The position numbers and the translations under genes are program-made. The notes under the pieces were generated by a model, which saw nothing but the letters and a program-made list of their open reading frames with translations, was not told where the DNA came from and searched no databases. A stretch of DNA of 64,000 nucleotides from Thraustochytrium sp. TN22 (lineage: Eukaryota; Sar; Bigyra; Thraustochytrida; Thraustochytriidae), in contig JABLUY010000114.1 of NCBI GenBank assembly GCA_013306675.1, positions 1 to 64,000 on the forward strand, in the 5' to 3' direction. This document shows positions 4,708-54,865 of this stretch, one piece after another. Within the stretch, counting starts at the first letter, position 1. Each line of letters opens with the position of its first letter.

Positions 4708-7029
4708 TCACGGGTGTCCCGAGGACGCCGAGCCTCCGCGCATGTGCCAGTCTGCCCGCTCTTGGGCGGCGCGGCGGAGCGAGGGGTACGCGAAGCCGGC
4801 GTCCAGGGGTGGGCCCGCCGCGAGCCCGGCCTCCATGTCGTCGATACGGCGCTGCAGCTTGGCGGCGACGGCCAGGAGCTCCTCGCCTGGGTTGGCGTGG
4901 CGGCTCTGCGAGATGCGCGAGACGTGCTCCTCGACAAAGGACACAAGGTCGGCAGCGCACAGGTGCGCAAACTGTCGCACCTTGCGCGACCGCGCGAAGG
5001 CGACGAGCTCGGCCGCGGCCTCGGCCGGCAGGCCGGCATGGGAGGTCAGGTCGTCGGCGAGCTCTCGCGCGCGCACCGAGCGGCGGTCCCCGGCCGCGGT
5101 CGCGAAGAGCGCCTGCAGAAGCTGGGACTCGCGCGCCGTCACGGCCAGCGAGCGAGCCTTGGCGGCGGCCTCGCGCACGAAGACGAGCGTGCCGCGGTCC
5201 GCGAGCGCGGCCATCTCGAGCGCGAGCCGACCAAGGCAGGGCGTCTCCTCCACGAGCTGCACAAAGTCCGAGGGCAGAATGGGCTCGTACTGCTCGTGCG
5301 GCGGCCGGCGCAAGAGCGCCTTGACGCTCTCGTCCACGAGCTGGTCCAGCGCCGTCTTGCGCGCGCCCACGCGGCTTCGCCGCAGCTTTGACACCACCGA
5401 CGATACGGTCAGCGCCGCCTTGCTGCGACCCCGCAGGATGCGGTACAGGCGAAGCGCGGCCTCCGCGACCTGCTCGCGTTCGCGGGCACTCGGCTGCGCG
5501 GCGCGCTCCTCGGGGCGGCGCAGCGGCGGCCGCTGCGCCGCCACGGAAGGGTGCCGGCCGCCGCGGTCCGCGTAGCGCGTGCGCCGTTGCGTGAGCGGCG
5601 AGGGCGGGAGCTCCGCAACGCGGCGCGGCGCCTGCTGCGAGACGGTGCTCACGAGGCCAAGCGCCGGCCCGCGGCGCGCGGCCGCCGCGGCCGCCTCGTA
5701 CTGCTCCAGCTGCCGACGCAGCAGGCGGCGCGTGCGGTAGCCGCGCCACGCGGCCTGCACGAGTGCAGCGCGCTCGTCCCAGAACCTGCGCTTGACCTGC
5801 GCCGAGGTGGGCGGCCGCGCCAGGAGGCCGTGGGCACGCACGGCGTCGACTCGCGACGGCCGCACCGCCTCGAGCTGCAGCCCTTCGGACCGCAGCGCGA
5901 GCGAGGGCTGCGCGAGCTGCGCCCTCTCTGGCCGCTTCGGCGGCGCGCTGCGACTCGCCAGCCGCCGAGGCGAAACGTCGCCGCAGTGGAGCGTCTTGTA
6001 CAGCAGTGCGATTTGCGACGGCGTCAGCGAGGACACCTCCACGTTGCGGTCGTACGCCTCGTGCGTGTGGCCCGCAGCGCCCGCCAGCGCGCGCATCGTC
6101 TCCTTGGCGTGCTCCTCGAGCTTCTCCTCGAGGTGCTCGATGCGCTCGATGAGCGCGTCGGCGGACATGGAGCGCGCAGGCGCGGGCGCCTGCGGCGACC
6201 GGGCAGGGGCCTCTGCCTCGGCAGGCGCGCAGTCGTCGCCAACGAGCACGAAGCCGCCCGCTGGCGCTGTCGACTCCTCCGACGTCTCGGCCTGCTTGGT
6301 GTCGCCCGCCGCGTCAACGAGAACGAAGCCGCCAGGCGTGGCCGGCGGTGGCGGTGGCGGGCCCGGCGGCCGCGCCGCCTCGCCGGCCTCGTCAGGCGGC
6401 GGATCCTCGTCGGGCGGAGGCAGCACAAGTGGGTTGGTTCCCTCGGATGCATCGTCAGCGTCGGCATTTTCGGCATCGGCTGCGGCGTCGGCGGGCGGAT
6501 GATCTGGCGGCTTGAGAAGCGCGGACGTCACGGAGGAGGACGAGGAGGAGGAGGACGAGGAGGCCGCCGAGTTTGGGTGCTGCTGCAGCGCGTGCGGTTG
6601 CGGCGCCGCAGGCTGCTGCGTGTCCGCCGTAGCCTGGCTGGCCGCGTCCGAGTCCCACGGGAAGCTGCCCTCTGTGTGCCCCCTCTCGCGCAGCTCCGGC
6701 AGCTCCCTGAGCGCGTCCAGGTCGATGAGCCCTGGCGGCACGGACGCGCGGCGCTCCGCCGCGTCTTGCTCCGCGCCTCCAGCCCTCGCCGTCGGCGACT
6801 GGTGCTGCTTGCGCGCCAGCGGCCGCCGGCGCGCGCCGGGCAGCATCTCGTTCACGCGCGCCAGCATGGCCAGCCGCGCCGACGAGCGCCGGCTGCGCCG
6901 CCCGCCCTCGGCGCCGCCGCCGGCCTCGCTGCCGCCGGCCTCGCTGCCGCCGCCGTCGCCGCCATCGCCGCCGCCGCCCGCGCCGTCGCCATCGCCGCCG
7001 CCCGCGCGCGCGCGCGGGGCGCCCTCCAT
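4708..7029 (-). CDS. IQ-motif protein with two LIR-like FVLV motifs
   Basis: A 773-residue protein, mostly disordered and Ala/Gly/Pro/Glu-rich in its first 350 residues, with a poly-Ser run. Two near-identical motifs, GGFVLVDAAGD and GGFVLVGDDC (FVLV at residues 235-238 and 260-263), match the ATG8-interacting consensus [FWY]-x-x-[LIV] and sit beside acidic residues. A short coiled coil (IERIEHLEEKLEEHAKE) follows. One IQ motif, VQAAWRGYRTRRLLRRQ, lies near residue 425. The C-terminal 250 residues are helical and without a family match I recognise. I chose the ATG at 7029, because upstream in-frame sequence reads as low-complexity promoter. It is divergent from the piggyBac-derived gene. A calmodulin-binding scaffold is likely; the autophagy link is inference from the motif alone. 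Confidence 0.6.
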   Translation of the reverse strand: MEGAPRARAGGGDGDGAGGGGDGGDGGGSEAGGSEAGGGAEGGRRSRRSSARLAMLARVNEMLPGARRRPLARKQHQSPTARAGGAEQDAAERRASVPPGLIDLDALRELPELRERGHTEGSFPWDSDAASQATADTQQPAAPQPHALQQHPNSAASSSSSSSSSSVTSALLKPPDHPPADAAADAENADADDASEGTNPLVLPPPDEDPPPDEAGEAARPPGPPPPPPATPGGFVLVDAAGDTKQAETSEESTAPAGGFVLVGDDCAPAEAEAPARSPQAPAPARSMSADALIERIEHLEEKLEEHAKETMRALAGAAGHTHEAYDRNVEVSSLTPSQIALLYKTLHCGDVSPRRLASRSAPPKRPERAQLAQPSLALRSEGLQLEAVRPSRVDAVRAHGLLARPPTSAQVKRRFWDERAALVQAAWRGYRTRRLLRRQLEQYEAAAAAARRGPALGLVSTVSQQAPRRVAELPPSPLTQRRTRYADRGGRHPSVAAQRPPLRRPEERAAQPSAREREQVAEAALRLYRILRGRSKAALTVSSVVSKLRRSRVGARKTALDQLVDESVKALLRRPPHEQYEPILPSDFVQLVEETPCLGRLALEMAALADRGTLVFVREAAAKARSLAVTARESQLLQALFATAAGDRRSVRARELADDLTSHAGLPAEAAAELVAFARSRKVRQFAHLCAADLVSFVEEHVSRISQSRHANPGEELLAVAAKLQRRIDDMEAGLAAGPPLDAGFAYPSLRRAAQERADWHMRGGSASSGHP

Positions 7030-7250
7030 TGCGGTTTCGCGCCTCTCGCGCGGCGGCCAAAAATTCAAAAATTCAAATTCGAATTCGAATTGGAGTTCAA
7101 ACGCGCCGCGCGGGCGCGGGAAAAACAATCAATCCATCAATCAATCGCGCCGCTGCAGCCGCGCCGCCAAGGCCCGAAGCGGCGGCGGCCCCTGCGCGGC
7201 GCCTGGGCGGCGGCCGCGGCGAGCCGAGGGAGGGGACCGGGCTCGCGGCG

Positions 7251-7288
<38 letters not shown>

Positions 7289-7300
7289 GCGGCGGCCGCC
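7030..7300. promoter_or_regulatory. Divergent promoter between IQ protein and piggyBac-derived gene
   Basis: A 271-bp gap between two divergent start codons. It holds an AT-rich patch (about 7060-7105) of TTCAAA/TTCGAA repeats, including the palindrome TTCGAATTCGAA, then CAATCAATC repeats (7127-7147), then a GCG tract just before the ATG at 7301. The string TTCAAACGCGC at 7096 also occurs just before the ATG of the ZIP gene at 41997. Shared regulation is a guess. Confidence 0.45.
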
Positions 7301-9343
7301 ATGAGGGCGGGCATGCGCGTGGCGGCGGCGGGCGGCGGCGGGCGGCTGGGCGAGGCGACGGGCCGCGTGGTGCGCGTGGCGCCCGGCGGCGGCAGCAGCG
7401 GGTCGCAGGCGCCCCGCGTGGAGGTGGCCTTCGACGGCGAGGAGGGCGTCAGCGTGGTGGGCGCAGACGAGCTCGTGGTGCTGCAGCAGGGCCCGCGCAA
7501 GCGCAGGCGGCGCGAGGCGGAGGGCGGCGACGGGCTGGCGGCACCGCACCAGCAAGGCCAACAGCAGCAAGGGCAGCAGCAGAAGCACGAGGAAACTGAG
7601 CCGACGCCGTGCCCGCACGCGGTGCGCACGGGGCCCAGGACGTGGACGCTGCGCGCGACGGCGGCGGACGAGCGCGGGCCAAGCCTGGTGTCGCTGGGCG
7701 CGATGCTCTTGCCTGGCGCGCAGCACGCGCAGACGTTAGAGGCGCCCTTGAACTGCTTCACGGCAGTGCTGTGGGACATGGATACGCTGGGGGAGGTGAT
7801 GATGTGGACGAACCGCAAGCTGGCGCGGCGGCGCGAGCCAGAGCTGGAGATGGAGGAGTTCTACCGATTCATGGGCCTCCTCATCCAGCGCGCGCGCTTC
7901 CCGAGCCACTCGGAGGAGGACTTGTGGGCGCCCAGCTGGGGCGCCGGCGACGTGCGCTTCGCTGAAGCCATGGCGCTGCCCCGCTTTCGCGCGCTGCTGA
8001 GCTGCCTCAGCTTTGCGGACGACCCCGTCGCGGCCCAAGCTCTTCTCGACTCGAGGGATCCGGCCACGCGCGCGCGCGAGCAAGTGGCCTGCGCCGGCTA
8101 CCCGGCGCTGGCGCGCATTCTCAACGAGCGCCGGAGGAACCTCTTTGTGGCGGGCAAGCGCATCTGCATCGACCGATACTCTCGCGCCTGGCGGGGCGAG
8201 GCGGTTCCGCAGGCGCCCGTGGATGTCTACGCGGCCGTATGTTGCGACACGGGCGTTGTGCTGGGGCTTTCGGTGCAGCTCGAGACGGAGACGGCGACCG
8301 CCGAGGGCCGGGCCGCCACCGCGGCTGCGCTCCTGCAGGCCTGCCCAGCCGGGCCGGGCCGCACCGTGTACGCCGGGGAGGCGATTGCAGGCGTGGAGAG
8401 CGCGCTGCGCGTGCGCGGCGAGCGGCGCATGGACTTTGTGGGCCGCGTGTCACGCGGCGCGGCGCAAGAGGAGGACTTTCCAGGCGAGACGCTGCGCGCC
8501 GCGCTGGCCGACGGCCCGCCTGGCCGCAGCCTCCTCATGGAGTCCGGCGAGGGCGACGCGCACTTGTTTGCGGCCGCGTGGACCGACGGCGCGCACACGC
8601 AGACGCTCGTCTCCACCACGGCCAACACGGCGGAGGGGCCGCCCGAGGTCCCGCGTGACGCGCACGACGTGTGGGCCGCCGTGGTCGCGACGCGCCACGC
8701 GCCACGCGACATACTCACGGCCGAGTTCGCCGCGGGGAGCGGCGCCGTGACCGCGCACGCGCGCACGCGCGACTCCGTGCTCGCGGTGGAGATGGCCGTG
8801 CAGCCGGCGAACTGGCCCGCGCGCCTCTTTTGCGCGCTCCTCGGCATTTGCGTGCAGGACGCCTTCGTGCTCCACGGGCTCCGAATGGCGCAGCAGGCGG
8901 GCGCCGCGGCCCAGGCCCGCCAGCCTCAGCAGCAGATGAGCGACTTTGTGTCGCAGCTCGTGCGCTCGCTCGTGCGCGGTCTCTCGAACTCGGCTCCGGC
9001 GTCGCACGCGGCCTCTTCGCCGCCCTCCGCGACCGCGACCGCGAATGCGCCCACCGCCGCGCTGCGCGGCGCGGCCTCGTCCCTCACGCCGACGCACGAG
9101 ATCCGCGGCATGACACGCTTCAATCGCGAGGCCAAGATTTGGAAGCAAAAGAACCCCAAGCTGCGCTGCTCCGAGTGCAAGCGCCGCGGCCGCACACCGG
9201 CCTTCAAGGCGTGCAACCTTTGCCTCACCTGTTCGATTGCGCTCAAGGGATCCAGCCCTCAGTGGAAGTCCGAGCTCGTTGTTCGTCTCTGCAAGGCTTG
9301 TATCCCGCTGCATTACCGCGACAACGGCGTATTTCCTTCGTGA
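7301..9343 (+). CDS. PiggyBac transposase-derived protein, probably domesticated
   Basis: A 680-residue protein. Residues about 12-55 resemble a Tudor/agenet-like barrel (GEATGRVVRVAPG ... VEVAFDGEEGVSVV). A basic RKRRRREAE patch and a Gln-rich linker follow. From about residue 150 it matches the piggyBac DDE domain: FTAVLWDMDTLGEVMMWTN, EMEEFYRFMGLLI and ALPRFRALLSCLSFAD. The C-terminus (about 620-670) is a piggyBac-type cysteine-rich finger: CSECKRRGRTPAFKACNLC, then CLTC and CKAC. The first catalytic Asp seems kept in ICIDRYSRAWRGE. The second (normally x-D-N-F-F-T-S) reads VYAGEAIAG, and the third (GGVDxxD) reads GSGAVTAHA. The frame is intact from start to stop. An open frame without catalytic residues suggests a host DNA- or chromatin-binding role. 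Terminal repeats were not seen. Confidence 0.7.
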   Translation: MRAGMRVAAAGGGGRLGEATGRVVRVAPGGGSSGSQAPRVEVAFDGEEGVSVVGADELVVLQQGPRKRRRREAEGGDGLAAPHQQGQQQQGQQQKHEETEPTPCPHAVRTGPRTWTLRATAADERGPSLVSLGAMLLPGAQHAQTLEAPLNCFTAVLWDMDTLGEVMMWTNRKLARRREPELEMEEFYRFMGLLIQRARFPSHSEEDLWAPSWGAGDVRFAEAMALPRFRALLSCLSFADDPVAAQALLDSRDPATRAREQVACAGYPALARILNERRRNLFVAGKRICIDRYSRAWRGEAVPQAPVDVYAAVCCDTGVVLGLSVQLETETATAEGRAATAAALLQACPAGPGRTVYAGEAIAGVESALRVRGERRMDFVGRVSRGAAQEEDFPGETLRAALADGPPGRSLLMESGEGDAHLFAAAWTDGAHTQTLVSTTANTAEGPPEVPRDAHDVWAAVVATRHAPRDILTAEFAAGSGAVTAHARTRDSVLAVEMAVQPANWPARLFCALLGICVQDAFVLHGLRMAQQAGAAAQARQPQQQMSDFVSQLVRSLVRGLSNSAPASHAASSPPSATATANAPTAALRGAASSLTPTHEIRGMTRFNREAKIWKQKNPKLRCSECKRRGRTPAFKACNLCLTCSIALKGSSPQWKSELVVRLCKACIPLHYRDNGVFPS

Positions 9344-33699: not shown

Positions 33700-33970
33700 C
33701 GCCGCGTTGATGCGGCGCTTTCGCTGCAGACGAGTGAACAAAGTAGCCCCGACGTGTATCGAAGCGTGCGCTTCCTCGAGGTCACCTTCACGACGCTGTC
33801 CGCACATTCTGCAGATTCGCCGCCGGCCCAGCGCGCCGAGCTGATGCGGCCCTTTCGCTGCAGAAGAGTAAACAAAGGAGCACCGGCGTGTTGGCTTGAA
33901 GCGCGCGCGCTCCCTCGAAATTGCCGTCAACACGCTCTCCGCCCTGGACCGCACATCGTGCAGAGCAGAG
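33700..33970. repeat. Two diverged direct repeats, period about 134 bp
   Basis: Blocks beginning GATGCGGCGCTTTCGCTGCAG (33709) and GATGCGGCCCTTTCGCTGCAG (33843) continue in parallel through AGTGAACAAAG/AGTAAACAAAG and CGCACATTCTGCAGA/CGCACATCGTGCAGA. The repeats lie between the TPR gene and DHFR-TS. Open frames through them exist on both strands with no family resemblance, so I treat them as non-coding. Confidence 0.65.
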
Positions 33971-34240
33971 TTGTCCTGCGTGATGCTCGCGACACTCGCG
34001 GTCCACTCGCGCTCGCGCAGAGGCGAATTACCCGTCCTTCGTCACGGTGCTCCTCCACGCGCGCGGCGCGCTCGCCGCACCAACCTAACGACGGTGGTTA
34101 GATGCGCTGGCCCGCCGGCGGTCGGCGATTGGACAAGTCGCCAGGCCAGCGGCAAGTCCCGTTGCCCAAGCAAACTCCGTTCGAGCCGCGCGAAGAAGCA
34201 GGCAGGCGAGCGAGCGAGCAAGCGCGCGGCAGCGGGCGCG

Positions 34241-35869
34241 ATGAGCGGCAAGGCGGCGAGCGTGCCGGTGAGCCTGGTGGTGGCGGCGGCGGAGAACGGC
34301 GGCGGCATCGGCATCGACGGGCGGCTGCCGTGGAGGCTGCGCAAGGAGCTGGCGGTCTTCCGCGAGCTGACGTGCGCGGTGCGCGGCGCCGGTAAGCGCA
34401 ATGCGGTCATCATGGGCCGCAAGACATGGAGCAGCATCCCGGCCAAGACGCGGCCGCTCGCGGGCCGCGTCAACGTGGTGCTGACGCGGCGCGCCTGCGA
34501 CGCCTCCGGCATCGAGGCGGTGCGCGCCGAGCTGGACATCCCGGCCGAGGTGGCGGTCTGCCCGAGCCTAGACGCGGCGCTCGAGGAGTTGTCCGCGCGT
34601 GCGGACGTGGAACGCGCCTTCGTCATCGGCGGCGCCAGCGTCTACGCCGAGGCGCTCGCCTCGTGCGAGTCGGTCTTTCTGACGCGCGTCTACGGCGACT
34701 TCGTCTGCGACACCTTCTTTCCGGCGCTCGACGAGGTGGTCTTTCGGTGCACGGGGTCGCCGGAGCTCGCCCCGCAGGGCCGCCAGGAGGAGGACGGCAT
34801 CGCGTACGAGTTCCTGCACTTCGAGCGCTGCGCCGATCCGACGGCCGACTCCGGCAGTGGACCGTGCGGGGCCGCGCGCGAGGCGAGCGCCGAGGCGGAC
34901 GCGGATGCTGATGCGGAGGCGGACCCTGCGGCCGAAACGCCGGCGCCCGAGGCAGCGCGCGAGGTGAGCGCGCCGGCGGCGCCCAAGGCGGCGCCGGTGC
35001 GCCGGCACGAGGAGTACCAGTACCTGGAGATGGTGCGCTACGTGCTGGAGCACGGCGACGACCGCGGCGACCGCACGGGCACCGGCACGCTGTCAACCTT
35101 TGGCACGACGATGCGCTTCAGCCTGCGCGACGGAACGCTGCCGCTGCTGACGACCAAGCGCGTGTTCTGGCGGGGCGTGGCGGAGGAGCTGCTCTGGTTC
35201 ATCTCCGGCAGTACGAGCGCCAAGGAGCTCCAGGAGAAGAACATCCACATTTGGGACGGCAACGGGTCGCGCGCCTATCTGGACAAGCTTGGCCTGACTG
35301 ACCGCGAGGAGGGCGACCTGGGCCCGGTCTACGGCTTCCAGTGGCGCCATTTTGGCGCCGAGTACAAGACGATGCACGACGACTACGCGGGCCAGGGCGT
35401 GGACCAGCTCGCGCAGCTCGTGCACACCATCAAGACCAACCCGAACGACCGCCGCATGATTCTGTCCGCCTGGAACCCGGCCGCCTTTCACCTCATGGCG
35501 CTGCCGCCCTGCCATATGTTTGCGCAGTTTTACGTCTCGCGCGGGGAGCTCTCGTGCCAAATGTACCAGCGCTCGGGCGACATCGGCCTCGGCGTGCCCT
35601 TCAACATTGCGTCATACGCGCTGCTCACACACCTGCTGGCCAAGTGTACGGGCCTGCGCGCCGGCGAGTTCATCCACGTCATTGGGGACTGCCACATTTA
35701 CAAGAACCACGTTGACGCGCTGCGCGAGCAGCTTGATCGCGAGCCGCGGCCCTTTCCCACGCTCAACATCAACACGGACAACACGGACATCGACGGTTTC
35801 ACATACGCGGACCTTGAGCTCGTCGGCTACAGCCCGCACAAGACCATCAAGATGGAAATGTCCGTTTGA
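34241..35869 (+). CDS. DHFR-TS: Bifunctional dihydrofolate reductase-thymidylate synthase
   Basis: A 542-residue fused enzyme. TS methylates dUMP using methylene-tetrahydrofolate, and DHFR regenerates tetrahydrofolate. DHFR (about 1-200) shows [28 protein letters not shown] and [14 protein letters not shown] linker of about 45 residues is rich in Ala, Glu and Asp and is probably disordered. TS (about 255-542) shows [14 protein letters not shown], the active-site Cys near residue 423 in [11 protein letters not shown], and [20 protein letters not shown]. The ATG at 34241 directly precedes the DHFR fold. Fusion of the two is typical of plants and many protists and absent in animals and fungi. 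The last codons and stop lie in a 20-bp tandem repeat. Confidence 0.97.
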
Positions 35870-45731: not shown

Positions 45732-46607
45732 TTAGCCGGTCCAGGTGGCGCCGAAGTCGTCGGGGGCGAGGTCGTCGTCGTCGAAGACCTGCTCGACGTC
45801 GTTGACCTCGTCGACCATGTGCACGAGGAGGTTCTTGATGCTGAAGCGGAGGGTGACGGTGGAGCTCGGGCAGGAGACGCAGGCGCCGACGAGGCGCAGC
45901 TTGACGGTGCCGGTGGCCGCGTCGAAGCCGCGGTACTCGAGGTCGCCGCCGTCCATGATGAGGTTGGGCCTTATTCGCTCGTCGAGAATCTCCTTGATGA
46001 GCTCCTCGACCTCGTCGCCCTCCTCCTCCGCCGCCTCGCTGTCTTCTGGGTCGGCGCCGCCCGCCGCGTTCGCGGTCCCCTCCGCGTCAGCGGCGTCGAC
46101 GCCAGCGTCGTCCGCCTCGTCGCCCAGCACCTCGCGCCATTTGCCGTCGCCGAGGTCTGCCTCGAGCGAGGTCTCCAGGTCGGCGCCGAGGGCGTCCCAG
46201 CCGTCGTCGTCGAGCTCCTCGCGCAGCGTCACGGACACGAAGTCGGGCGCCACGAGCGCGTTCGCCACGGCCTCGCCGCGCTTGCGCAACTCCGCCAGCA
46301 GCGAGGGCGCCGTCAACTTGGCGGCTGCCGCCGCATCGCCCTCGACAGCGGCGCCGGCGCTGCTGCCGCCGCGCACCTGCACCGTGCCGCCGCGCGCCGC
46401 GCGCAGCAGGCGCAGCCTGCCGTCGCTCGGCACGAACTTGACGCAGCGCGGATTCGGGGTGGGCTCGCGCAGCAGCTCGAAGCTCGCGATGCCGCGCCGC
46501 CGGGGCCAGGCCGCCGCTGCGCTGCGCGCTGCTTCGCTGCGCGCTGCCCACGCGCCGCGCAGCAGCGAGCCCTGCGGCCCGCGCCGCCCCAGCGCCGCGC
46601 CCAACAT
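45732..46607 (-). CDS. NFU1: NFU1-type iron-sulfur cluster scaffold, mitochondrial
   Basis: A 291-residue protein that carries a 4Fe-4S cluster to enzymes such as lipoate synthase. Residues 1-45 are Arg/Ala-rich with no acids until late, as a mitochondrial presequence. The Nfu N-terminal domain starts at EPTPNPRCVKFVPS and includes a Ser/Gly/Ala-rich insertion. A long acidic linker follows. The C-terminal NifU domain (about 210-285) reads IRPNLIMDGGDLEYRGFD and LVGACVSCPSSTVTL, with the C-x-x-C cluster ligands. An upstream in-frame TTG is not needed; the ATG at 46607 fits the presequence. Confidence 0.92.
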   Translation of the reverse strand: MLGAALGRRGPQGSLLRGAWAARSEAARSAAAAWPRRRGIASFELLREPTPNPRCVKFVPSDGRLRLLRAARGGTVQVRGGSSAGAAVEGDAAAAAKLTAPSLLAELRKRGEAVANALVAPDFVSVTLREELDDDGWDALGADLETSLEADLGDGKWREVLGDEADDAGVDAADAEGTANAAGGADPEDSEAAEEEGDEVEELIKEILDERIRPNLIMDGGDLEYRGFDAATGTVKLRLVGACVSCPSSTVTLRFSIKNLLVHMVDEVNDVEQVFDDDDLAPDDFGATWTG

Positions 46608-46819
46608 CCTGGCCTTGGAGTTTGTTTGCTTGGACTTCAAGTTGTTGCCCGGCGTGCAGCCTGACTACTCGGAGGACCGCGGCGCGTACGAGCTCAGGCT
46701 TCGGCGCGCGGCAGTCATCCATCGCGGCGCTCGCCATGCACCGCTGCTGCAGCGAGGATGGGCACGATACGGTGCTCGGCGCTTGCGGGGATGGTGGTGA
46801 ACGGCACGGTCGCGCCGCC

Positions 46820-47657
46820 TCAGGCGTAGTACATGCCGCCCGGGTCCTCGTGGTGCACCGGCGGCGGGACGATGCGCACGACGAAGAAGAGGAGCATGCC
46901 AGTGTCGAGCAGCATGAGGCCGACAAAGACGCAATAGGTGCGCAGCAAATCGGTGACGGACTCGATGATGTACTCGGCCAGGTAGTCCTTGCAGGTGTCC
47001 TCGTAGCTGCAGCGCGCCGCGGCCGGGTTCTGCTCCTCGACCGTGGTGGAATCGTATCCGCAGCAGCGACCTTCGTTCTGGACGTCGGAGACAAAGGTGA
47101 AGAGGTCAGCGGCGTCGTCGCGGTTTTCTGTGATGCCGCGCATGACGTCCATCCAGCCGTGGCGGATGTTATTGTCCTCCACCTTGAGCTGGTCCGGGTT
47201 GCGCAGGCCGGAGAGCAGAATGGCACCCACCGCCTGAAAGAGCGCAATGAGCAGGCCCATGAAGAGGAAAGCCTTGACGACGCTCCGGCGCCGGTACAGT
47301 GTCCCGAAGAGGCCCAGCATGCTATTCGCCGCGGCCGCGCCTGCCACCACACTAATGATGAGGCCAGCGCTGCCGCCGGCGGTGTACACCATGGTGAAGA
47401 GCACCTCGTGGTTGGTGTAGTACTGCGCCTGCGCCAGCACGAAGCATGCCATGATGAGCTGCACGACGCTCGACCCAAGGAGCAGCAGGCGATTGCACGC
47501 CAGGCTCTGCGCGTGTCCGGTCCCTCGTCAGTTCCACCGCGCCTACTCCTCTTGAGCCTCTCCCTCGCGCTCTCCAAGGAGGGGCAGTCCAACCTACAGT
47601 CTGCATGCTGCGGCACTTGAGGCCCGCCGCGCCGCGCCCTTCGCCCTTGACGTCCAT
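46820..47657 (-). CDS. Tetraspanin-like protein, two exons
   Basis: Exon 1 is 47598-47657 and exon 2 is 46820-47506, with a 91-bp intron (GTAGGT donor, CGCGCAG acceptor, phase 0). The inferred 248-residue protein starts MDVKGEGRGAAGLKCRSMQT and continues SLACNRLLLLGSSVVQLIM. Without splicing, exon 2 has an upstream stop and no ATG before helix 1. Four membrane helices, a short first loop and a large second loop with RCCGYDS (the tetraspanin CCG motif), plus later cysteines (C-S-Y-E-D-T-C), support the family. Tetraspanins organise membrane protein assemblies. The splice model is inferred. Confidence 0.65.
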
Positions 47658-48677: not shown

Positions 48678-50984
48678 TCACGGGTCGCCAGCGACCTTGG
48701 GCGCAGGCTCCGATCGTGTAGAGAGCGGCGCTGGCGCGACGCGTTCGCTAGCAGCCGCGCCCTCGCCGCCCTCATTGCTCCCGGCGCCCTCGTCATCTTC
48801 AATGATGACATGCTGAGAGGTATCCCCAGTCCTCTCCTTGACGCCCTTGCGCAGGCGCGAGGTGAAGGTCTTTACAATGCGCACGATGCTGTAGGGGTCG
48901 ACTGCGGCTGCCTCGGCCTGCGCGCTCTCCAAGAGCATCTCCTTGGCGATGGCAGTCTTTTTGAACCTGCGCAGGTTCTCAGCGTGCGGCGACTTGAGGA
49001 AGCGAGGGTAGTTGTCGCGCTCGAGTTGCTTGTAAATCTCGCGGCGTGCTTCGTCGTAGACGTCCAACGTAAGCAGCGTTGGGTCTGCGCGTAGTAGGTT
49101 GCGGCGCTGCGTGTCGTTGATGTTGACCTGGAAGGAGCCGCTCTCCTCAATGTAGCGTCGTAGCATGGTCTCATGCAGGCGGTGCAGCGAGGTCCAGTCT
49201 GATTTGTAGCTGTCGACCTGCTCCACGAAGAGGAGGCTCTCGACAGCGAACTCGGAGGTGAGGAAAATTTTGAAGAACTGAAGACCCTGCTTGTCTTCGA
49301 AGAGTGCCTCGAAAGACCGGAGGCTCGGTACCTCATCGTCGCTGATACTGGCGATGGCACGAATCAGTGACGGGTCCTCTGCGGGAACATCCAGGACGCT
49401 GTCCTCGTTGTCGTTGTCGTCATTCTCCTTCCCGCCGGCCGGGTGCACTTTGGAGTCCATGGCGGACTCTGGGGTTACGCCGCCACCAGGGGCCTTCCTT
49501 GAGGCCTTTTTGTCGACGTTGAAGAATGATACGAGCTGGTCGACGATGGAGTCGATGAAGTGGCTCTCGAGCATGGCCTCATCATCCATGCTCTTGCCGC
49601 GGTTGTCGTCCTCCTGCGAGAGCAGGTAGAGCGTGCGTGCGAGCTTGCGCACGACGACAGTGGTCTTGCGAATGGGCCGCACGACGTTGCGCTGTACGTC
49701 TCGATTAAAGAAGAAGGACGAGAGCGCGAGCATCACGATAAGTACGAAGGTGAGGATCATGTTGAGGCGCGCTTGCGCCTGTTCGAAGGGCGTGTCATCG
49801 AGCACGGCCAGACTGAGACCAGAATCGGACCTGACGGATACCAGAAAGGCGGGTCGCGTCACCTGGAGGCGAGGCTCGTCCAGGAAGACGTCCTCGCCGC
49901 GTCCAGCCAGGTCAAGCGCAACGAGGTAGTCGGACTGCTGGTCGATGAAGAGCTCCACCTGGACACGCTCGAGAGTAGTGAGCCCCGGGTCTGATGAAAT
50001 GGACGAGGATGCGTTTGTGATGGTCTCGAGCAGCTCGAGCCCATGCTCCGGGGAAAAGTCGTAGCGCGCGACCTCGAGGTAGGGCAGCACAAGGAGCAGG
50101 GTAATGGTGCCGAGGATGACGCGCTTGCCGAGGAGGTCGGCGAGGCGTAGGCCGAGCTTGTTCGGGGCCTGCGTAGACTCATCACCGCGCACGGGGAGGT
50201 AGCGGCGCGCGTAGAAGATGCGAATGAGACGGATGAGACGGAAGATGCGCATGATTCTGGCGAATCGCACGATGCGGAGCAGGCGCAGCGCGCGTGTGGT
50301 CCTGGTGCCGGTCCGAACGAGTCGGCCGGCGCGAAGGATGGCAAGGTGGTCCTGCTCGTCGCCCGTGACGCTGGCCTCCGTACTGACGATGCGCTCCCAG
50401 ATGAAAGATACATCCGGCAAGATACTGACGAGTGCGATGAAGTCGAGCCAGAAGTAAAAGGACCAGCGGTAGTGCTTCCGGTAGACGACACTGACGCAGA
50501 GCTCGAGGCTGAAGAGTACAAAGGCGGTGAACATGAGAGCGTCGAGCGCCGGTACGGTGTTGACGTCACCGTAGATGATGGCGAGATCCGGCGCGAAGAG
50601 AACCACGAGTGTAGCGAGCACGATGAGCGCCTGTACGATACGGCTGTCGAGCCAGGCCACGATCTTCTCCTGGAGGGTCTTGGGCTTCTCTGAAGCCTTC
50701 TTGGTGTCCTGTTTGCCGCCGGTGGCCATCCTGTAGGCCAGGGCCTTGAAGGAGTCATCGTTGGTCTGTGGCGCAGCGAAGGGCGCGAGGATGGTGCGCT
50801 TTAATCGCACCATCCCGACCGAGTTGCGGCGGCCAGAAGAGGAAGTCAAACTCGAGTTGCGCCGCGCAACCGAGACGATGCTCTTCACCTCGGCCTGGAT
50901 TTCCTTGCGCGTTTTGCGCATGGATGCAGTCCGCAAGTCACCCACATCCGGCAGCTCCTCCTCATCTTGCTCGCGCTGCTCCAT
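48678..50984 (-). CDS. Voltage-sensor protein with C-terminal RGS domain
   Basis: A 768-residue protein from the ATG at 50984. A basic N-terminus (1-110) precedes a four-helix voltage sensor: IVQALIVLATLVVLFAPDLA, LDALMFTAFVLFSLELCVSV, FYFWLDFIALVSILPDVSF, then a long S4 (about 220-262) with arginines at every third position, for example RIVRFARIMRIFRLIRLIRI. No pore loop follows. Instead there is a helix (VILGTITLLLVLPYLEVA), an extracytosolic loop of about 120 residues, another helix (MILTFVLIVMLALSSFFF), a HAMP-like linker, an acidic linker and an RGS domain (about 554-663; SLRSFEALFEDKQGLQFFKI to YPRFLKSP). RGS domains speed GTP hydrolysis by G-alpha. Stramenopile and alveolate cyclases have the same front half, here joined to RGS. 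Confidence 0.85.
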   Translation of the reverse strand: MEQREQDEEELPDVGDLRTASMRKTRKEIQAEVKSIVSVARRNSSLTSSSGRRNSVGMVRLKRTILAPFAAPQTNDDSFKALAYRMATGGKQDTKKASEKPKTLQEKIVAWLDSRIVQALIVLATLVVLFAPDLAIIYGDVNTVPALDALMFTAFVLFSLELCVSVVYRKHYRWSFYFWLDFIALVSILPDVSFIWERIVSTEASVTGDEQDHLAILRAGRLVRTGTRTTRALRLLRIVRFARIMRIFRLIRLIRIFYARRYLPVRGDESTQAPNKLGLRLADLLGKRVILGTITLLLVLPYLEVARYDFSPEHGLELLETITNASSSISSDPGLTTLERVQVELFIDQQSDYLVALDLAGRGEDVFLDEPRLQVTRPAFLVSVRSDSGLSLAVLDDTPFEQAQARLNMILTFVLIVMLALSSFFFNRDVQRNVVRPIRKTTVVVRKLARTLYLLSQEDDNRGKSMDDEAMLESHFIDSIVDQLVSFFNVDKKASRKAPGGGVTPESAMDSKVHPAGGKENDDNDNEDSVLDVPAEDPSLIRAIASISDDEVPSLRSFEALFEDKQGLQFFKIFLTSEFAVESLLFVEQVDSYKSDWTSLHRLHETMLRRYIEESGSFQVNINDTQRRNLLRADPTLLTLDVYDEARREIYKQLERDNYPRFLKSPHAENLRRFKKTAIAKEMLLESAQAEAAAVDPYSIVRIVKTFTSRLRKGVKERTGDTSQHVIIEDDEGAGSNEGGEGAAASERVAPAPLSTRSEPAPKVAGDP

Positions 50985-51616
50985 GGAGGTCGACGTGGCC
51001 GGCGCCACAGTCGAGCTGCCCGCGCCCCCGACAGCGCTGCGCGTCTGCTCAGCCTCGCTCGCGTGCGCCGCAAGCAAGAGCGCTGCGCTGCAGCGCAGTG
51101 CAATTCTACCAAGTGCAATGCTTGCTCTGCACAATGCAGTACGGTGTGAATGCAGCGCATTACGACGACACTAACTAATTATGAAGTCTGGCGCGCAGTG
51201 GATGAGGTGCCATTGCCAGTATTTGTGAATTCGAGGCCGGGTTTGACCCTTTGCGGCGACCACCGGCTCTATCGCCCAATTCGCAGAGTCGTTAGACCAC
51301 TTTGTGCTCACCCTTGAGATGTGAGCAAAGCTTTCCCGCTGAGACCACTGACAACTCATCACACAGCGTACAGCGCTCAAGGCGGGACCACGAGGACGAC
51401 ACTCAGGCTGGCCCTTTCCCGGCGCATTTGGCGATGATTGGCTGAGGGGTACCTGACTCGGACTTGGTGGCGGGTCAGCAAGACCAACGTAAAGGCTGAT
51501 CACTTGCAGTGCGCTCGCCGCGCGGGCACGCGGACGGGCTGCCGCGCGAGCCGTCGGTCGGTCGGTCGGGCGGGCGGGCGGGCGGCGGGCTAGCGGGCAG
51601 GTTTCCGCGCAAGCGA
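50985..51616. promoter_or_regulatory. Divergent promoter between RGS and 7TM genes
   Basis: About 630 bp. The RGS-side part up to 51134 is open in frame upstream of the ATG and could be 5' UTR. The rest is of mixed composition, with GTCGGTCGGTCGG/GGCGGGCGGGC near 51553-51590. No gene seen. Confidence 0.4.
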
Positions 51617-53167: not shown

Positions 53168-54865
53168 TTAGCGCGAGCGAACGCTGAGGGGCAGGCCATG
53201 CTTGGGGCCCAACGTGACGTCGCTCTGGACGTAGAGCTCTTGGTTGGCAGGCATGTCGAGCTTGAAGTCGATGTTCTTGACGATGCTGGAGAGGATCATG
53301 ACACCCTCAATCATGGCGAGGCGCGCGCCGGCGCAAGTGCGGGCGCCAGCGCCAAAGGGCAAAAAGGCGTACTGGAGCTCTTTGTTGCCCGGGACGCCGA
53401 TGGGCTTGGTGGGGTGAAGCTCGGGGAGGTCATCAAAGCGCTCGGGGCGGAAGGCGTTGGGCTCGTCCCAGATGCGAGGATCGCGGTTCATGGGGAACTG
53501 GGAGACGAAGATAAGCGAGCCCTTGGGGATCTTGTAGCCGCTGAGCTCCGTGTCGCAGGAGCACTCGCGCGGGAAGGATGGGACAGTGGGGAAGAGACGG
53601 AGGGTCTCAAACATGACTTGGTAGGCGTACTTGAGCGAGCGCGCCTCCTCGTAGGTGGTGGTGTCGCCGGAGACGATGGCGTCGACCTCCTCGCGCAGCT
53701 TGGCGAGCTTGTCCGGGTTCTCCTGCAGCAGCTTGAGCATGAAGCAAATGGTGTTGGAGGTGGTCTCGTGGCCGGCGCCGCGGATGGTCTTGAACTCCTC
53801 ATTGGCCTCCTTCTCGGTGAGCGCGAGCGAGCCGTCATCGTTCTTGGCGGTGAGCAGGGCGTCAAGCATGGAGTTGGGGATGCGCTTCTCCTTGGCGATC
53901 TGCACGGCACGGTCAAAGGTGGCGTCCATGCGCGCCTTGATGTCGACGATCTTTTGGTTGTGCGGGATGAGGTCCATGAGCGGGATGGCAGTGCGCATGA
54001 CGATGTCCTGCAGGCCGTAGTCGAGGTCGTGCGCGAAGGTGTTCTCCTCCTCCGGGATGGACTGCTGCGAGGAGAGGTCGTTGTACTCGCCCGTGCCGAC
54101 GTTCATGATGATGTCGAGCGTGAGCATGGACATGTCGTAGTAGCAGTTGATGTTGCGGCCCTCCTGGCCGGCCTTGCGCCACTTGCCGAGCAGGATGCTG
54201 ATCTGGCTCTGAATGGCCGGCGCGTACTCGCGCAGATGCTTCTCGCTGAGAAAGGTGCTCACCACGCGGCGGTGCCGCATCCACTTGGGGCCGGTGGGCA
54301 GGCCGAGGAGGCCGTCGCCGACATGCTCCGTGAAGCCGGTGTGACCGCGCGTGTTGTAGGTGACCTTGTCCGTAAGCACCTTCTTGACGGCGTCCGGGTC
54401 GCTCACAAAGACGACTGGGACGGCCAGGCTCCAGTCCGTGCTGCTGAAGGGGCGGATGAAGGTGAAGACCGGGCCCATCTCCTCGGCCAGCGACTTCTCC
54501 AGCTCGTGCCGCTTCCACGGGCCGAACTTGTGCAGCGCGCGCGCGATGGAATCCACTGGGACCACGGGCGGCAGCGCCGTGCCGGCCTTGCCCCACATGG
54601 CGCGGCGCGCCACGTACTGGAACAGCGTCAGCGCCGGCAGGCCCTTGGCGGGCCGCATCTTGACCACCGCCAGCACCAGCGCCACGGCGCGCACCAGCTT
54701 ACCCTTGGCCGCCAGCCGCGCGGCGTGCAGCACGGTCAGCGCGTTGAGCGCCACTTTGCGCTGCGCCTTGAAGGGTCCCGAGCCGAGGTTCACGTTCGTC
54801 CCGTACGCGTTGCCCCACGCCGCCAAGGCCAGCGCCCACTTCAGCACGCGCTCCATGTTGCTCAT
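53168..54865 (-). CDS. Cytochrome P450 monooxygenase
   Basis: A 565-residue P450. A hydrophobic N-terminal region (about 1-90, with amphipathic helices) probably holds it on the ER. Key motifs: I-helix GAGHETTSN near residue 367, the E-x-x-R pair ETLR near 418, the PERF region FRPERFDDL, and the heme loop FLPFGAGARTCAGARLAM with the ligand Cys near 509. The heme loop and I-helix match CYP4/CYP97-like families; substrate cannot be told. Length is normal, with an extended N-terminus. A (GCTA)n tract lies 14 bp upstream of the ATG. Confidence 0.93.
   Translation of the reverse strand: MSNMERVLKWALALAAWGNAYGTNVNLGSGPFKAQRKVALNALTVLHAARLAAKGKLVRAVALVLAVVKMRPAKGLPALTLFQYVARRAMWGKAGTALPPVVPVDSIARALHKFGPWKRHELEKSLAEEMGPVFTFIRPFSSTDWSLAVPVVFVSDPDAVKKVLTDKVTYNTRGHTGFTEHVGDGLLGLPTGPKWMRHRRVVSTFLSEKHLREYAPAIQSQISILLGKWRKAGQEGRNINCYYDMSMLTLDIIMNVGTGEYNDLSSQQSIPEEENTFAHDLDYGLQDIVMRTAIPLMDLIPHNQKIVDIKARMDATFDRAVQIAKEKRIPNSMLDALLTAKNDDGSLALTEKEANEEFKTIRGAGHETTSNTICFMLKLLQENPDKLAKLREEVDAIVSGDTTTYEEARSLKYAYQVMFETLRLFPTVPSFPRECSCDTELSGYKIPKGSLIFVSQFPMNRDPRIWDEPNAFRPERFDDLPELHPTKPIGVPGNKELQYAFLPFGAGARTCAGARLAMIEGVMILSSIVKNIDFKLDMPANQELYVQSDVTLGPKHGLPLSVRSR

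Follow-up and report, generated by a model that had tools for sequence, protein, structure and literature searches.

Can membrane voltage act on heterotrimeric G proteins through a single protein? This question was raised by a gene on the minus strand of a 64,000-nucleotide stretch of Thraustochytrium sp. TN22 DNA (hereafter the window), in which an earlier note had read a four-helix voltage sensor with a long arginine ladder, two helices flanking a sensor loop, a HAMP-like linker and an RGS domain. The gene runs from an ATG at 50984 to a stop at 48678 and comprises 768 codons without interruption; a TTG lies in frame upstream at 51134, and the ATG at 50984 agrees with the start of P0002, the closest homologue. 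The parts follow one another in the order voltage-sensor domain (VSD), TM5, outside loop, TM6, linker and RGS domain, with the following positions in the window:

48678..50984, minus strand: whole gene, 768 aa plus stop, a single unbroken frame
50655..50984, minus strand: N-terminal cytosolic region, residues 1-110, poorly conserved except for an [AS]PF motif
50577..50639, minus strand: S1, residues 116-136 (hydropathy, alignment)
50481..50543, minus strand: S2, residues 148-168, with F158-x-x-E161 (alignment)
50403..50465, minus strand: S3, residues 174-194, with D181 (alignment)
50211..50333, minus strand: S4 arginine ladder, residues 218-258 (R218, R221, R224, then R228-R255)
50115..50168, minus strand: S4-TM5 linker, residues 273-290, NKLGLRLADLLGKRVI, within the most conserved stretch
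50070..50126, minus strand: TM5, residues 287-305 (hydropathy)
49782..50069, minus strand: predicted extracytosolic loop, residues 306-401, with sequons and no K+ filter motif
49710..49769, minus strand: TM6, residues 406-425 (hydropathy)
49620..49709, minus strand: cytosolic linker with a VVRPIxKTT motif (the PI linker), residues 426-455, homologous to the cyclase-type chassis
49515..49589, minus strand: residues 466-490, within which lies the segment MLESHFIDSIVDQLVSFF, conserved in the RGS type
48987..49316, minus strand: RGS domain, residues 557-666 (Pfam PF00615, solved-structure search)

The first point to settle was whether these parts truly belong to one protein. The proposed union of a VSD, two further helices and an RGS domain was borne out by the single frame, and Pfam searches of the window protein (E≤10) gave matches to RGS and Ion_trans alone. 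A homologue search of 5.8 billion proteins, with scoring limited to the 7,995 candidates that had the most words in common with the query, revealed 10 homologues with 35-58% identity and 58-99% of the query covered, and PF00615 was present in nine of them in the same domain order as in the window protein, so that the search for homologues of identical order proposed in the earlier note met with success. The tenth, P0011, is a 595-aa protein devoid of RGS that was probably cut, because its contig spans 1,975 bp. All ten carried the precomputed annotation PF26726. P0002 belongs to Hondaea fermentalgiana (Thraustochytrida), the sole organism named among the ten, and is annotated merely as 'Regulator of G-protein signaling 13', while P0008 is a transcript ORF, listed as type complete, from MMETSP, which we take to be a transcriptome collection. 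An alignment-based search recovered nine homologues, P0010 missing, plus one cyclase-type protein (P0012). The presence of the Hondaea homologue and of the MMETSP transcript ORF makes it very unlikely that two genes were joined by assembly or annotation; no point supporting such an artefact was found, and the unbroken frame together with the order kept in nine separate protein records, a transcript ORF among them, led to its rejection. A search for prokaryotic relatives yielded 51 stretches that fitted a pattern, of which zero were confirmed. In the N-terminal region, P68 and F69 of the [AS]PF motif (residues 61-70, window 50775-50804, minus strand) were invariant in the 11 aligned proteins.

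The membrane part begins with a VSD whose S4 contains, from R228 to R255, ten arginines at exact i+3 spacing, against a maximum of seven reached in 5000 shuffles of the window protein. F158 and E161 in S2 and D181 in S3 were invariant in 11/11 RGS-type sequences, and the corresponding pattern, F/Y-x-x-E/D in S2 plus D in S3, is what we take to be the charge-transfer residues. The Ion_trans family (PF00520) matched residues 140-253 below its cut-off (E=0.0059, 16.3 bits vs 25), and it was above the cut-off in five of the 10 homologues (P0003, P0005, P0008, P0009 and P0010). Moreover, a profile was built from the VSDs of six RGS-type sequences (out of 11) and three cyclase-type ones; all nine matched Ion_trans at E≤1, and among solved structures the profile had its best match in Shaker (E=0.0026). 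The four-helix voltage sensor with its long ladder was accordingly upheld: S4 bears R/K at every third residue, and voltage gating is predicted. The ladder has ten steps in nine of the 11 RGS-type sequences, whereas P0008 has 9 and P0011 has 8. Measured by one common rule, 117 of 122 cyclase-type sequences had ladders of 7-9, single sequences reached 10 and 11, and three stayed below 4. Long S4 ladders belong to the whole chassis family, and by this rule the difference between the two types is small; known voltage-gated channels have 4-6 S4 charges, according to the accessible part of PMC10651576. It could be supposed that the membrane half does not respond to voltage, being an anchor that serves only to place RGS at the membrane (or flagellum), and that the VSD is a relic, which would be in line with an outside loop variable in length and sequence; however, the charge-transfer residues are invariant and the ladder is retained, even slightly longer than in the cyclase type, where decay would be expected of a relic, and we consider this improbable.

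Beyond S4, the highest mean column identity was found at residues 275-304, covering the S4-TM5 linker and TM5 (0.82), followed by TM6 with the PI linker (0.76), RGS (0.70), the linker at residues 456-495 (0.63) and S1-S4 (0.62). The S4-TM5 linker NKLGLRLADLLGKRVI is proposed as the coupling element. The outside loop, with a mean identity of 0.46 vs 0.82 for TM5, was the least conserved portion of the membrane half and about as variable as the tails. Two helices do flank a loop, as had been claimed, although the length given for it, about 120 residues, did not hold, since the loop has ~96 residues in the window protein and 80-137 across the 11 sequences. Cysteine is absent from it, and one or more N-glycosylation sequons were present in 11/11; summed over the 11 sequences, there were 28 sequons in 1,055 loop residues vs 33 in 7,116 elsewhere, a concentration that fits an extracytosolic position.

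The sensor role of the loop and the HAMP-like nature of the linker found no support. HAMP, Cache and CHASE produced no Pfam match at E≤10 in the window protein; its 10 homologues gave none at E≤1, and none was among the listed 25 of 28 families in 26 cyclase-side relatives. It is thus doubtful that the protein is a ligand receptor working through a Cache/CHASE-like outside loop, with the VSD merely modulating: the TM5-loop-TM6-linker layout, the loop of 80-137 residues and the ubiquitous sequons would suit such a receptor, but these family matches are absent and loop identity lies near that of the tails. A channel with a K+ pore was also rejected, given the variable loop and the absence of a K+ filter pattern (T-x-G-Y-G-like) from 133/133 chassis proteins in a scan directed at K+ filters alone. 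No Guanylate_cyc match was detected in the window protein, and the cyclase profile matched 0/10 RGS-bearing proteins; as far as K+ filters and class III cyclases are concerned, the earlier statement that pore and cyclase are lacking was correct.

The front half is not new, being a pore-less VSD chassis that otherwise bears a class III cyclase in stramenopiles and ciliates. The front half of such VSD-cyclases was described in Phytophthora in 2025, and by the description given in the accessible part of that report, PPTG_13136 and PPTG_13761 have a VSD without pore region, of the same front-half kind (PMC12223298). For the Phytophthora cyclase form, a flagellar location has been reported. The kinship with protist cyclases that the earlier note had mentioned was confirmed by comparison with 108 cyclase-type proteins, Phytophthora ones included, in which every E-value stands for one single comparison: E=2.3e-59 for the front half (residues 110-460, local profile comparison), 3.1e-47 for the VSD, 8.3e-12 for TM5, 1.3e-16 for TM6 with the PI linker, and 0.71 for RGS vs cyclase, the negative control. 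A global, end-to-end profile alignment of the 11 RGS-type sequences with the 108 gave E=4.8e-74. For the stretch between PI linker and RGS, the comparison with its cyclase-side counterpart, the cyclase linker, fell short of significance (E=0.045 and 0.1). Residues 466-490 were dropped as a homologue of the pre-cyclase helix, as they were not significant alone (E=0.045, probability 1.2), and the claim of homology to the chassis is therefore carried no further than about residue 455.

In the same genome (37.9 Mb, 453 contigs), two further front halves were found, on contigs C183 (E=2.6e-21 vs the window protein) and C398 (E=5.9e-20). The 1609-aa frame of C183 also holds a Guanylate_cyc match. 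A profile search gave no Guanylate_cyc match in C398; its frame contains an FGFCDIRNF stretch, a seed of the cyclase profile, and PF00211 is present in its relatives P0014, which shares 72% identity with it across the front, and P0015 from Hondaea (69%). With the C398 front half as query, 243 matches were returned, and among the 120 listed PF26726 was annotated in 120, PF00211 in 55 and PF00615 in none; the organisms named among the listed matches were Hondaea, Triparma and others whose names we group as oomycetes, ciliates and a pelagophyte. The output profiles assigned 122 of the 133 chassis proteins to the cyclase type and 10 to the RGS type; no protein matched the two profiles together, and P0011 matched neither one. 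The assignment is circular for the members that seeded the profiles (28 cyclase, 10 RGS).

An unrooted tree of 60 rows was computed from the 11 RGS-type sequences (P0011 counted among them although RGS is unseen in it), 48 of the 122 cyclase-type sequences and C183. The RGS type formed one side of a branch with support 100/100 (11 rows vs 49), which makes one swap between cyclase and RGS the simplest history; the tree has four long end branches, and C183, on a long branch (1.65), adjoins the RGS stem (1.43). Apparently, it was the cyclase that was exchanged for RGS on the shared membrane half, a direction that we infer, the tree being unrooted.

The C-terminal region gave the significant RGS match that had been expected: PF00615 aligned to residues 557-666 with E=7.9e-14 (52.5 bits, above the curated cut-off of 23.9), and the solved-structure search retrieved RGS16, RGS1, RGS2, RGS8 and RGS4 (best E=5.4e-11). 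The surface facing Gα is strongly conserved, with one position departing from expectation. The equivalents of RGS4 E83, E87, N128 (N621), L159, D163, R167 and F168 were kept in 10/10 RGS-bearing members; except for E87, N88, I114 and N128, the RGS4 positions used are presumed to be contact or catalytic positions. At 12 positions that we take to be Gα-contact sites (Ser583 included), mean identity was 0.95 vs 0.70 for the whole domain and 0/20,000 random sets were as high, and at the nine polar contact positions it was 0.944 vs 0.635 (p=0.00055), statistics in which the rows are related and the draws not independent. The departure is the equivalent of RGS4 N88, which was Ser (Ser583) in 10/10. 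This is the change found in dominant-negative RGS4: in an excerpt of PMC3688948, RGS4(N88S) is said to be unable to stimulate Gα GTPase, and mutating RGS4 E87, N88, I114 or N128 lowers GAP activity by more than 90%, according to an excerpt of PMC3434218.

Potential partners are encoded in the genome, where 24 Gα matches were found, 15 of them above the family cut-off, and 8 of the 12 loci inspected have a canonical switch I and a DVGGQRNER switch II. In the best 20 of the 45 RGS matches of the genome, the N88 position was occupied by Asn in 14, Ser in three, His in two and Leu in one, and the occurrence of Ser in these three other domains indicates that it may be tolerated with these Gα proteins. 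The same residue opens a rather unlikely alternative, in which the protein would be a voltage-controlled Gα binder without GAP activity that binds, sequesters or scaffolds active Gα, hydrolysis not being accelerated. The invariant Ser, as in dominant-negative RGS4, and the retention of the remaining contact face would agree with it; yet the seven kept equivalents listed above, N621 among them, fit selection for catalytic geometry, and one of the three other Ser-bearing domains belongs to L018, a protein with seven hydrophobic segments.

We therefore regard it as probable, judging from sequence, that the gene product is a membrane protein by which voltage regulates heterotrimeric G proteins, and voltage-to-Gα coupling is likely. 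Voltage would shift S4, and S4 would tug on the S4-TM5 linker; TM5, TM6 and the PI linker would relay the movement to RGS, presumably as they do to the cyclase in the sister proteins, and RGS access to Gα-GTP would be altered, the G-protein signal most likely being shortened in one voltage state. Because of Ser583, the output could be either faster GTP hydrolysis or Gα capture. Tentatively, and at slightly less than even likelihood, we propose that the protein may be a voltage-gated GAP for Gα, so that membrane potential would directly set G-protein signal lifetime, bypassing channels, receptors and second messengers. If this were true, the sister VSD-cyclases and the RGS proteins with cyclic-nucleotide-binding stretches would constitute a second, indirect voltage route to the same G proteins.

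Several known systems resemble this protein in part. VSD-cyclases have a class III cyclase as output, whereas the window family has RGS, forms a separate clade and possesses an S4 ladder mostly about one to three steps longer. Ci-VSP likewise combines a VSD and a cytosolic signaling output with no pore; however, its output is a phosphatase, for which the window protein showed no Pfam match (E≤10). In Ci-VSP the VSD runs straight into the phosphatase, unlike the window protein, in which TM5, loop and TM6 are placed between VSD and output, and no VSP was among the solved-structure matches of the nine-VSD profile. Protozoan fusions of K+ channel and adenylyl cyclase also join a VSD to a signaling enzyme in protists; these are described as having a K+ channel pore (Weber 2004, as cited in the accessible part of PMC10651576), in contrast to the chassis proteins, with a K+ filter in 0/133. 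Similarly, the plant 7TM-RGS proteins (PMC6033456) and fungal MoRgs7 (PMC6405168) unite a multi-helix membrane protein with RGS, but as far as the excerpts of these sources describe them, their input is seven-helix and receptor-like, where the window protein has a VSD. Vertebrate RGS16 and RGS4 resemble the window protein in the sequence of the RGS domain and in most Gα contacts, and differ from it in that its N88 position is Ser and its RGS domain sits in a membrane protein.

A literature search with thin coverage of subscription journals, and with sources seen in excerpt, found no description of a VSD-RGS fusion, and under the same thin coverage nothing on RGS domains of thraustochytrids. 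RGS is mentioned neither in the main text of PMC12223298 nor in the main texts of reviews on voltage sensors and voltage-controlled enzymes. A 2023 review intended to present every VSD protein reported by then (PMC10651576) names, besides ion channels and VSD-only proton channels, a Na+/H+ exchanger, a cyclase and a phosphatase. If the VSD does drive RGS, G-protein deactivation would join the list of VSD outputs, and electrical and G-protein signaling would be united in one molecule. The fusion also shows the protist VSD front half to be a reusable module. It offers a natural component from which tools for voltage control of G proteins could be built, and the reason for Ser at the N88 position becomes a testable question.

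RGS is a frequent output module of this genome. Among the 20 RGS loci scanned, four (L001, L010, L011 and L012) have an RGS domain preceded in the same frame by two or three cyclic-nucleotide-binding stretches, and in four (L003, L007, L008 and L018) a C-terminal RGS is combined with seven hydrophobic segments. Other combinations were EF-hand-RGS (L013), BAR-RGS-PH (L014) and tandem RGS-RGS (L015 and L017). Three membrane-RGS genes sit near one another on C310 (68-75 kb), and C407 holds two more. A 1712-aa frame on C111 (L063:549-5684, minus strand) contains three Ion_trans/Ion_trans_2 stretches with filter-like TTGFGD, AVGYGD and TAGFGN, along with two cyclic-nucleotide-binding stretches, and its C-terminal domain is RGS (E=3e-13); it is a second protein of the ion-channel type with RGS in the genome, and its front half is different from that of the window protein.

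Around the gene, at 45732-47464 and 53168-54865 (both minus strand), the neighbors comprise a NifU-like protein, a tetraspanin and a cytochrome P450, with no evident functional link to it. Elsewhere in the window, a fused dihydrofolate reductase-thymidylate synthase is encoded at 33896-35869 (plus strand), and a frame at 6512-9343 (plus strand) carries a DDE_Tnp_1_7 transposase domain, presumably of the piggyBac type.
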